A stretch of DNA of 64,000 nt from Christensenella minuta (GTDB lineage: Bacteria > Bacillota > Clostridia > Christensenellales > Christensenellaceae). Shown in pieces: positions 50,009 to 53,393 of the stretch. The stretch spans positions 2,499,585 to 2,563,584 of the forward strand of contig NZ_CP029256.1 in assembly GCF_003628755.1 (NCBI RefSeq), written 5' to 3'. Position numbers and translations under genes: made by a program. Position 1 is the stretch's first letter, and each line of letters begins with the position of its first letter. Below the pieces are notes generated by a model that made no database searches, was not told the origin of the DNA, and saw only the letters and a program-made list of their open reading frames with translations.

Positions 50009-50157
50009 AGTTCCGGCAATTTGCGCGCCCCGGAAGGGAACGGACCTATCCGGTCATTGCGCTGCAGCATGAAAAAAAGGGGCAAGGTTGCGGGGAAGAG
50101 ACAAACGTGCTATGATAGGGAAACCGTTACCGAAAGAAAAACAGATAGGAAATCCTA

Positions 50158-50185
50158 TCCGCCTTGTTGCGATAATACGCATTAA
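50158..50185 (+). repeat. Left 28-bp inverted repeat of a candidate invertible element
   Basis: It is an exact reverse complement of 50375-50402. Core TTGTTGCGATAATACGCATT. The outer flanks (AAATCCTA on the left, CGGCCCCC on the right) share no target-site duplication, so a simple transposon origin is not supported. Confidence 0.92.
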
Positions 50186-50222
50186 AAAAATAAATCCCAC
50201 GCTTGCGGCGTGGGATTTTATG
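50185..50222. terminator. Hairpin inside the candidate invertible element
   Basis: AAATCCCACGC (50192-50202) pairs with 50208-50218 around a 5-nt loop. On the minus strand it is followed by seven T residues, so it is strongest for leftward transcription; after inversion of the element it would stop rightward transcription. Confidence 0.82.
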
Positions 50223-50303
50223 TGTTTTTAGGCACCTGCTTTCAATTTAAACGCCAGGACAAAAATTTAATTGTATTATCCTGCCGGTTTCTTCCACGGA
50301 TAA

Positions 50304-50332
50304 TTGACAATAACAAGTCCGGATGATATATT
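50304..50332 (+). promoter_or_regulatory. Consensus promoter inside the candidate invertible element
   Basis: TTGACA (50304-50309), 17-bp spacer, TATATT (50327-50332). In the orientation seen here it fires rightward out of the element toward the Rrf2 and surface-protein genes, giving a leader of about 330 nt. Confidence 0.78.
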
Positions 50333-50374
50333 ATTCTCGAAAAGTATAATTTTGAATGGCTGTCGTTTGATATC

Positions 50375-50402
50375 TTAATGCGTATTATCGCAACAAGGCG
50401 GA
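50375..50402 (-). repeat. Right 28-bp inverted repeat of a candidate invertible element
   Basis: Perfect partner of 50158-50185 with 189 bp between. An ATG in this copy opens a 35-codon frame (MRIIATRRTAPRRLKGILEI and on to about 50490) that runs out into the flank, without a ribosome binding site; it may be a remnant. Confidence 0.92.
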
Positions 50403-50667
50403 CGGCCCCCCGCAGGCTTAAAGGAATTCTGGAAATTGATTGCATGATGGATGGGCCCGAAAATGAATTGAAGACGCTGCGTCGAAAATAGTACCGGGAA
50501 AAAATGGTATTATTACTGACAGTGCGATAAAATACGATTGAATTATAGTGCATAAAAAAAGAATAGTCAACAATAAAGAAGACGATGCGTATATTAAAAT
50601 TTTAAAATAAATATTTTAAAAGCATGAACTAAAAGACAATGCGAATTAAAAAACGAGGGGCGAGAAA
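50403..50667 (+). other. Leader between the invertible element and rrf2
   Basis: About 265 bp. The first 90 bp hold the 35-codon frame noted in the right repeat. The rest is AT-rich; near 50598-50625 ATTTTAAAATAAATATTTTA is a near-perfect AT palindrome that could bind the Rrf2 protein. No second consensus promoter was clear. Confidence 0.45.
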
Positions 50668-51096
50668 ATGAAAATCACTACAATCTATGCGGCGAAAATA
50701 CTTGGATACATCACGCAAAATGGAAATTCGCTGACAACTGCGGGAGAAATCGTGGAAAATGTGGGAATTTCCTATCAGTATTGCCTGAAAGTAATGAACG
50801 AAATGAAGCATGCGGGAATCCTGGTCTCGGAACAGGGCTGCAAGGGCGGCTACCGGTTGAAAACGAAGCCGGAAGACGTCAGCCTGTACGATATACTCGA
50901 TTTGTTTGAATACAGCCGTTCCGCGGAGAAAGAGAAAGAACGGGAAGGATTGGAGAACGATCCTTTCAATCGGTTCATGAAGCATATTCATGAAAAGGAG
51001 GCGGAAGACCTCAGGCATTTTACCATCCGGGACGTTTACGGGAAGGAAAGCAATATCGAAAAACTCATACAGGAAAAATTGGCAATGGCAAAATAA
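50668..51096 (+). CDS. Rrf2-family transcriptional regulator
   Basis: The 142-residue protein has the Rrf2 winged helix (TTIYAAKILGYITQNGNSLTTAGEIVENVGISYQYCLKVMNEMKHAGILVSEQGCKGGYRLKTKPEDVSLYDILDLFE) and a charged helical tail. Only one Cys (near residue 58) of the usual three that bind an Fe-S cluster is in the expected area, so it may not be an Fe-S sensor. GAGGGGCGAG precedes the ATG. It is followed 29 bp later by the surface-protein gene, probably one operon. Confidence 0.9.
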   Translation: MKITTIYAAKILGYITQNGNSLTTAGEIVENVGISYQYCLKVMNEMKHAGILVSEQGCKGGYRLKTKPEDVSLYDILDLFEYSRSAEKEKEREGLENDPFNRFMKHIHEKEAEDLRHFTIRDVYGKESNIEKLIQEKLAMAK

Positions 51097-51125
51097 TGAA
51101 AACGGCAGAGAGAAGGGAGTATGAC

Positions 51126-53393
51126 ATGAAAACGCGCAGAAGCTGCAAAAGGATGATCTCCGTGATACTGTGTGTTGCGGTGGCGCTGACAGTTGTAAGC
51201 GGCGGCGTCGCTTTTGCACAGGAAACAGGAACGGCGGGTACGGAAGGAGGCATGTGCCTTAAGGGCTGCACGCTGGAATCAGGACATGAGGGAGAATGCG
51301 TCCTTGCGCCCGCGGGCACGGAAGACGGCCCGGCCGATGAAGAATCAACAGAGGCGGAACAATTACAGGCGAGGATCGACGCACTGCCGGCTCCGGAAGA
51401 AACGGTCGGCATGGACGATGCTTCGCTTGAAGCGCTGAAGGCAGAGATGGACGCGATCTATGCGGAGATCGACGCGCTGGCAGACGGCGCACAGGCGCTG
51501 GATACGGCAAAACTCGGCGCGCTGGCACAGGCATTTGCGCCCGCGCCCATGATGGCGGTGGTACCGGTGCAGGTGGATGAAAGCGGATATACGGAATGGA
51601 CTTCCACCGATTCCCTGCCTTCCAGCGGAAAATATAAATTGATGAACAGTGTTACCCTGTCCGGAGATGTGACGGTCGGCAAATGGGCGGGTTCGCGCCC
51701 GGGGACGCCATCTGACACACTGGTGCTGGACTTGAACGGGCATACGGTAACGGCGGCAGGCGGCCGGGCGTTTTTTGTACAGGTGACGGGCGGGCTTACC
51801 ATTGAAGACAGTGCAGGCGGCGGAAAAATCACGAACGCAGGAGTTTCCGACAGCATGAAAACACTGGTTCAGGTTAACGGAGGAGCCTTTACACTAAAAG
51901 GCGGCACGTTGGAAAACGTTACTTCCGGTGGAACGGCTCTGTTTCTGAACGGCAATAGTACAACAATTATTTCAGGCGGTACGGTGGAAAACGTTGCGCA
52001 AGGCGCCAATGCGGTTTATGTAAACGGCGGTTCTTTCTCAATGGAGGGCGGCTCGGTGAAGACCAGCACGACTTATTCTTCCAAAGCGGCGATCTATGCA
52101 AATAGCAGCGCTGCCTCCATCGAGATTTCAGGAGGGAACATAGAATCCGCAACGGTAGGCGTCTATGCGGCGGTTACCCCTGTCACGGTAACGGGCGGAG
52201 CGATTACTGCCGGCGCCCAGGCTTTTCAGACGCGCTATGCCACCATACCGGAAGACAGTACGGTGACGGTGGAAAGCGGCGGGGCAGTGTTTTATACATT
52301 CAGCGGTTCTGACAACAAGGTATACGGCGGGGATTTTGACGCGCCCGCAATCGTGGAGGAATACACCTCGGAACAGCCGGGAACCGCAACTATATTTGGC
52401 GGGACTTATACGGTGTCCCCAATGGATTATGTAGATGGGGGAAGCGCTGCGGCTAGTTACACGGAAGCTGGGAAAGACGGCGTCTTTGTAGTCGGAACGA
52501 GTGATAAAATCGCCGATAAGGTCAGCTTGGCGCCAACGGGTTCTCAAATTGAAGTACTGCAGGGGGATATCGATTTATCGATCGCGGCAGACGGCGTGAC
52601 TGTAATAAATTCCGGCAACGGCACAGTAAAGGTAAACAATGCGGAAGTTACCCAAGATCCGCTGGTCACGCACACGCATCATGCCGTTAAGATAGATGCG
52701 AAAGAGGCGACGGCAACGGAAAATGGAAACATTGAATATTGGTATTGCGCGGATTGCGGAAAATATTTCAGCGGCGAAGCGCTGACGCAGGAGATCAGCC
52801 TTGCCGATACGGTGATTCCGGCAACGGGCGAACCGGGCGCGCGGGATGTTTATTACAAAGACGCGTCGACAGGCATAACGCTGCACGCGGATACCAGGGC
52901 GGTGCCGGAAGGCACGTACCTGGTCGCAAAGCCGGTCACGGAAGCAGAACAGGATTACGCGGCCGCGAAGGAACTGCTGAAGGATAAGGCGGGCAAATTC
53001 GTGCTGTACGACATCACGCTGGTGAACGCGCAGGGTGAAGCGATCCAGCCGGCAGGCCCGGTGATAATCGGTATCCCGGTTCCTGACGGATACGATAAGA
53101 CGGCGCTGACGGTGCACCATATAGGCGATGATCATACGGCGGAGGAATACGGCGTGGCGGAAAATGAAGGAATGGCATATATCCAGACGGAGCACTTCAG
53201 CAAATATGCGCTGGCCGAAAAGGGAAGGATGAGTGGAACGGGCGGCACGGCTGCGGACGGCGGCACGCCGAAGACGGGAGATACGGCGGATATGACGCCG
53301 TACATCCTGCTGGTGACGGCAGCGGCGGCAGCGGCGGCAGCGGCGGCCGTAACGCTGGTGGTGCGGAACAAAAAGCAGCATCAGGCAAAATAA
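51126..53393 (+). CDS. Large secreted cell-surface protein with sortase-like tail
   Basis: The start at 51126 has AAGGGAG 7-8 nt upstream. The 755-residue protein has a signal peptide (cleavage near AFA-QE), a short helical segment (about 90-140), a repetitive Gly-rich beta-helix-like region (about 165-480; LVLDLNGHTVTAAGG, TLENVTSGGTALFLNGNSTT repeats), a Cys-pair module (THHAVKIDAKEATATENGNIEYWYCADCGKYFS) typical of Clostridial surface proteins, and a tail TPKTGD followed by a membrane helix and basic residues, like an LPXTG anchor with Thr for Leu. Probably an adhesin-like wall protein. Confidence 0.85.
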   Translation: MKTRRSCKRMISVILCVAVALTVVSGGVAFAQETGTAGTEGGMCLKGCTLESGHEGECVLAPAGTEDGPADEESTEAEQLQARIDALPAPEETVGMDDASLEALKAEMDAIYAEIDALADGAQALDTAKLGALAQAFAPAPMMAVVPVQVDESGYTEWTSTDSLPSSGKYKLMNSVTLSGDVTVGKWAGSRPGTPSDTLVLDLNGHTVTAAGGRAFFVQVTGGLTIEDSAGGGKITNAGVSDSMKTLVQVNGGAFTLKGGTLENVTSGGTALFLNGNSTTIISGGTVENVAQGANAVYVNGGSFSMEGGSVKTSTTYSSKAAIYANSSAASIEISGGNIESATVGVYAAVTPVTVTGGAITAGAQAFQTRYATIPEDSTVTVESGGAVFYTFSGSDNKVYGGDFDAPAIVEEYTSEQPGTATIFGGTYTVSPMDYVDGGSAAASYTEAGKDGVFVVGTSDKIADKVSLAPTGSQIEVLQGDIDLSIAADGVTVINSGNGTVKVNNAEVTQDPLVTHTHHAVKIDAKEATATENGNIEYWYCADCGKYFSGEALTQEISLADTVIPATGEPGARDVYYKDASTGITLHADTRAVPEGTYLVAKPVTEAEQDYAAAKELLKDKAGKFVLYDITLVNAQGEAIQPAGPVIIGIPVPDGYDKTALTVHHIGDDHTAEEYGVAENEGMAYIQTEHFSKYALAEKGRMSGTGGTAADGGTPKTGDTADMTPYILLVTAAAAAAAAAAVTLVVRNKKQHQAK

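Follow-up and report, generated by a model that had tools for sequence, protein, structure and literature searches.

The gut genus Christensenella is of medical interest, and one locus of Christensenella minuta raises the question of whether a regulator gene and the surface-protein gene behind it are read from a promoter that can be turned around. In the window (the whole stretch of 64,000 nucleotides that was analysed), the 28-bp sequences at 50158-50185 and 50375-50402 are exact reverse complements of each other, separated by 189 bp, just as the initial annotation had described them. We conclude that 50158-50402 is very probably a site-specifically invertible promoter, inversion itself being what we infer from the arrangement of the locus and from its relatives.

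The element and the genes it would switch

The window holds no other perfect inverted repeat of at least 14 nt with arms 60-1000 apart, and in 60 order-1 Markov shuffles the longest such repeat was 15 nt, with 39 of the 60 lacking any of at least 14 nt; the arm pair is far beyond chance. A genome search for the arm sequence, which the initial annotation had proposed, found the pair to be unique in the 2.97-Mb genome: with the 245-bp element as query against the single contig of 2,969,292 bases, the matches were the element itself and its own arms only, and a 21-mer allowed up to three mismatches hit the two arms only. The exact 21-mer had no match in viral contigs. Each arm is partly palindromic (TGCG-N6-CGCA), and the portion conserved among relatives is the 18-mer TTGCGATAATACGCATTA, the remaining bases of the 28 being specific to the C. 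minuta genome. Along the window, the features are:

50133-50162, minus strand: leftward terminator immediately beyond the left arm, on the blind side; its hairpin (11.6 kcal/mol) spans 50141-50162 and its T-rich tail 50133-50140
50158-50185, plus strand: left arm, with the 18-bp site TTGCGATAATACGCATTA at 50167-50184, identical in C. intestinihominis
50176-50181: putative 6-bp crossover block of the left arm, placed from the variable columns
50192-50218: internal hairpin, at the end of the segment farther from the promoter; the T run is chiefly on the leftward strand (TTTATTTTTTT), with a weaker one rightward
50304-50332, plus strand: promoter TTGACA-N17-TATATT inside the segment, a consensus match that currently faces rrf2 (ON)
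50375-50402, minus strand: right arm, with the mirror copy of the 18-bp site at 50376-50393
50379-50384: putative crossover block of the right arm, placed likewise
50668-51096, plus strand: rrf2-type regulator of 142 aa (Pfam PF02082, 2.7e-21), first gene of the switched unit
51096-53393, plus strand: secreted surface protein of 765 aa, second gene, with a TPKTGD-like anchor motif recognised by eye

The rightward promoter inside the segment is as the initial annotation had it, and 23 of its 29 bases are conserved in C. intestinihominis. The T run of the internal hairpin had been assigned to the leftward strand; the longer run is indeed there, but a weaker T-rich stretch follows in the rightward direction too. 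This hairpin is also present in C. intestinihominis with another stem sequence (18 of 27 positions identical). The product of rrf2 scores 71.4 bits against the NCBIfam model rrf2_super, slightly below the cut-off of 73.3, and Pfam and NCBIfam profiles gave no match to the 765-aa surface protein.

In the mechanism that we propose, a tyrosine recombinase acting in trans would join the two inverted sites of about 18 bp and flip the segment of about 190 bp. As assembled, the locus would be ON, with the promoter transcribing rrf2 and the surface-protein gene. In the OFF state, the promoter would fire leftward, antisense, into the terminator at 50133-50162, while the internal hairpin would move between the right arm and rrf2; both genes would thus be silent. 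According to the initial annotation, inversion would turn the promoter toward mscL. This part of the proposal falls, because the leftward terminator in between would end OFF transcription at once, and because mscL lies upstream on the plus strand, with its 3′ end facing the element, and faces away.

Outside the left arm there is a second rightward promoter-like sequence (TTGCGG-N17-TATGAT, 50088-50116), which is recognisable in C. intestinihominis. In the leader downstream of the element (50580-50655 in the window), and likewise in the rrf2 leaders of relatives, a motif close to AAAGACAATGCGYATATTA is repeated, its position before the rrf2 orthologues varying. The motif, which has ATGCGTAT in common with the switch arm, is possibly an Rrf2 operator; a regulon search with this putative operator in the C. 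minuta genome gave two matches versus one for the control, with no regulon seen.

A family of elements in Christensenella

Six Christensenella genomes were compared, including those of C. minuta (G000, the window's own), C. intestinihominis (G003) and Christensenella sp. Marseille-P2438 (G001). In these assemblies, one per species, no locus was seen in both orientations. C. intestinihominis has an orthologous element ahead of its rrf2, oriented as in the window, in which both sites are identical to those of the window at 18 of 18 positions and the segment middle at 41 of 85. The unit there is rrf2 alone, the next gene being a convergent transporter with no surface gene between, and the homologue of the surface protein (326 identities over 784 columns) follows a separate element of the same family. 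The rrf2 orthologue of G001 has a similar promoter without arms.

Searching with the half-site pattern TTGCGNNNNNNCGCATTA at one mismatch is uninformative alone, because in most genomes the matches are about as many as those of the reversed control (19 versus 25 in the C. minuta genome); this search yielded the first sister pair, in G001. A degenerate pair pattern (TTGCGNTAAT...ATTANCGCAA) was then run over 396 genomes of the order and matched in eight of them, versus none of the 396 for the reversed-pattern control. Two pairs each are present in G000, G001 and G003, and none in G002, G004 and G005; G002 was covered by the site pattern only, and the upstream-DNA test covered only G000 and G004, whose loci were oriented by gene. 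Pattern pairs outside the genus (one each in G022, G065, G268, G293 and G388) have arms that mismatch beyond the pattern, and were taken as chance. The six elements, with their assigned targets, are:

min1 (C. minuta, window 50158-50402): rrf2 and surface protein; promoter toward the target
int1 (C. intestinihominis): rrf2; promoter toward the target
mass2 (G001): Rrf2 paralogue, about 120 bp off; promoter away
min2 (C. minuta, G000:C1:2261989-2262212): Rrf2, start about 630 bp off, with a LytTR response regulator behind; promoter away
int2 (C. intestinihominis): 701-aa surface protein, about 180 bp off, 42% identical over 784 columns to that of the window; promoter away
mass1 (G001): surface-type ORF of at least 2654 aa, about 525 bp off; promoter away

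The target sides are our own assignment, by which two promoters point toward the target and four away; those of int1 and int2 were picked by homology, int1 also facing a pentapeptide-repeat gene on its other side and int2 possibly a small ORF. The first gene is of the Rrf2 type in four of the six elements and encodes a surface protein in the other two. All are 214-236 bp long, with arms that fit TTGCG[A/T]TAAT-NNN-C[A/G]TT[A/T], and all contain TTGACA-N17 (four elements) or N18 (two)-TAnnnT, the end of the -10 box being 41-44 bp distant from the near site. On the blind side, the 70 nt beyond the arm contain a terminator-like hairpin with a T-rich tail in six of six (11.6-26.0 kcal/mol), as against none of six beyond the gene-side arm; of 120 70-mers drawn at random from the window, 14 had a terminator score of at least 5 and nine of at least 8, the best reaching 16.1. 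These blind-side hairpins could serve upstream or convergent genes as well.

Comparison of the 12 arms revealed that positions 11, 12, 13 and 15 differ between elements and never within one, whereas the within-element mismatches, two in all, fall at position 6 (mass1) and position 18 (int2). When the arms were permuted among elements, an equally good match was obtained in 2 of 720 orders, or in 1 of 120 once the orthologous int1 was left out. The variable block matches what a tyrosine recombinase with an overlap of about 6 bp would impose, with the overlap set post hoc at positions 10-15. Between the sister elements of a genome this 6-bp overlap differs by one base in one genome and by four or three in the others, and such diverged overlaps would keep sister elements from recombining with each other. 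We regard the six elements as a new, local family of putative invertible promoters, a kind of switch already known elsewhere. The phase-variable architecture put forward by the initial annotation is supported by their same geometry, the crossover signature, the occurrence among the six of both orientations relative to the assigned target and the recombinase family described below.

The candidate recombinase

No recombinase gene lies beside the element, as had been noted before, and the genome-wide search that the initial annotation had suggested returned 16 matches to PF00589 and eight to PF00239. We compared 23 of these 24 loci with the other five Christensenella genomes, the omitted one scoring the same as another. 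Only one, L115, is at least 82% identical in both other site-bearing genomes with nothing above 54% elsewhere (91% in G003, 82% in G001, 54% in G004, 35% in G002, 26% in G005). L115 encodes a 283-aa Xer-like protein at G000:C1:2903026-2903874, unlinked and about 353 kb from the element, in which the residues R-K-H-R-H-Y are kept. It scores below all NCBIfam Xer equivalog cut-offs (XerA_Arch, the best, 142 versus 220, XerD 115.5 versus 329.6, XerC 107.8 versus 335.15), and the nearest solved structures are XerC-like 4a8e, XerA 5hxy, XerD 1a0p and XerH 5jjv. We infer that L115 is most likely the recombinase that flips the elements, a claim held somewhat less firmly than that of the invertible promoter.

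At E<=1e-50 the 396 genomes give 11 matches to L115, of which eight (39-54% identical) lie beyond the site-bearing trio. Each of the eight has a 12-24-bp inverted pair beside it; in seven of seven outside the genus this pair is at the gene's 3′ end, where it either overlaps the stop codon or begins no more than 34 bp from it. The arms at these seven loci closely follow ACATAA-N6-TTATGT (e.g. GACATAATCCGCATTATGTTG; L301, with a pair of 12 bp only, imperfectly) and have ATAATnCGCATTA in common with the C. minuta site; we take both these arms and the site core to resemble dif. A TTG[AT]C-type promoter lies inside the pair at only four of the eight loci, and among the products of neighbouring genes are a Wzz protein, a signal peptidase and a BspA-like protein that carries a lectin domain. 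As a control, 60 other tyrosine-recombinase loci (1.5-4 kb) were inspected; eight have an inverted pair of at least 12 bp, among which L116, L136, L239 and L251 belong to the same Xer-like clade and the other four pairs are of 12 bp. Beside L115 itself there is no inverted pair of at least 14 bp in G000, G001 or G003. In a FastTree phylogeny the L115 clade nests among the linked homologues, with a support of 0.89 for its join with L305.

Several other recombinase loci were observed. In G004 (contig C2, L345 5100-5900), the 54% homologue adjoins a pair of 17-bp inverted arms, themselves palindromic, that enclose TTGACA-N17-TATGGT, and beyond them lies an ORF for a secreted protein; as a switch of another site type, this pair is suggestive, not proven. 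In C. intestinihominis (G003:C29, L348 751-2435), a linked Xer-like recombinase is followed by a 24-bp dif-like inverted pair and then by an Rrf2-family gene (PF02082), such that Rrf2 recurs as first gene. The C. minuta genome also encodes an Xer-like recombinase of 278 aa, with 100% identical copies in G002 and G004, which adjoins a 14-bp inverted pair 240 bp apart, a UDP-sugar dehydrogenase gene and a neighbouring ORF (G000:C1, L347 2150-4823) and is probably a mobile third switch. Two tyrosine-recombinase matches with identical scores 25 kb apart (G000:C1:2657400 and 2682937) are perhaps a duplicated element.

With Rrf2 in first place in four of the six elements and in one cis cassette, what is switched would be the state of an entire regulon, not that of a single surface protein. 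We are evenly divided on a broader scenario, in which a self-contained cassette (Xer-like recombinase plus dif-like invertible promoter) became a trans network in one Christensenella branch, with the enzyme unlinked, at least two promoters per genome, diverged overlaps that bar cross-element recombination and switching at the level of a regulon.

Alternative readings and known systems

The initial annotation had named a MITE as an alternative, and a short non-coding segment with terminal inverted repeats would suit a MITE or another kind of dispersed repeat. The multi-copy form is refuted by the uniqueness of the pair, which the 245-bp query and the 21-mer search both showed, and since the sister elements have only sites and geometry in common, each with an outward promoter, this reading can be practically discounted. 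The arms might instead be two strong operators, for example for Rrf2, that clamp or loop the promoter with no inversion involved. Rrf2 autoregulation is common, the rrf2 leaders of the genus repeat the AAAGACAATGCGYATATTA-like motif with the ATGCGTAT of the arm, and the arms are themselves partly palindromic. However, in two of the six elements the gene that follows encodes a surface protein and is not rrf2, four of the six promoters face the terminator, away from the assigned target, and the distant pairs adjoin recombinase genes; moreover, operators have no need of an identical asymmetric centre, yet this block matches inverted within each element. We therefore regard an operator-only function as improbable; some operator role for the arm site is possible.

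Other readings accept the inverton. Flipping by another enzyme, for instance by the conserved Xer-like L121 or by a serine recombinase, is suggested by the 16 PF00589 and eight PF00239 matches in the genome and by the large serine recombinase L131, which is 98-100% identical in the trio. This seems unlikely to us, in that L131 has homologues of 68-75% in the other three Christensenella genomes as well, L121 is found in all six and L119 also in G005, whereas L115 alone among the 23 loci tracks the site-bearing trio and has distant homologues with dif-like pairs at their gene ends. It would also be in keeping with the same orientation of both orthologous copies (min1 and int1) if a true inverton were now locked, or flipped too rarely to matter, in the C. 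minuta lineage. The sites have stayed identical while the segment middle drifted to 41 of 85, which suggests selection on working sites, and L115 is intact at the residues checked; we thus give little credence to a locked state. On the preferred reading, that of a working invertible promoter served by L115, a coin-flip would reset a regulon via Rrf2. The element lends itself readily to an orientation PCR, points to a candidate recombinase and provides a natural set of sites whose crossover blocks differ, and with linked and unlinked recombinases in one family, the step from cis to trans control becomes testable.

Judged by titles and the beginnings of abstracts, the literature searched includes no paper on phase variation in Christensenella, and an invertible promoter with an Rrf2 regulator as its first gene seems undescribed in it. 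Xer1 of Mycoplasma agalactiae (PMC2268961) is reportedly a Xer-like recombinase turned to phase variation. Xer/dif systems act at a single chromosomal dif, in contrast to the paired inverted sites proposed for L115, which also falls below the Xer equivalog cut-offs. In PMC11892184, a Clostridia inverton group (139) is significantly linked to a nearby tyrosine recombinase/integrase (invertase group 35), and group members show read-based orientation changes. The cis cassettes that we identified (L300-L306 and L348) look like this pair of groups, which differs from min1 in having its recombinase nearby, the best candidate for min1 being unlinked; the main text of that paper mentions neither Christensenella nor Rrf2.

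As described in PMC7446863 and PMC8844915, E. coli fimS resembles the present element in that a segment which can invert carries an outward-facing promoter, there for a surface structure, and differs in its sites and recombinases and in that the first gene here is a regulator. The same sources describe the C. difficile RecV switches (flagellar, cwpV, cmrRST and pdcB). The flagellar switch acts post-initiation and is said to be without a functional promoter, whereas the six Christensenella elements all hold a predicted one, as the cmr switch at least does. The RecV targets include surface proteins and the regulator operon cmrRST, as here, and the arrangement, in which a single tyrosine recombinase works in trans on several scattered switches with inverted repeats, is, by its description, like the one we propose. 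RecV of C. difficile is the best functional parallel to the Christensenella family.
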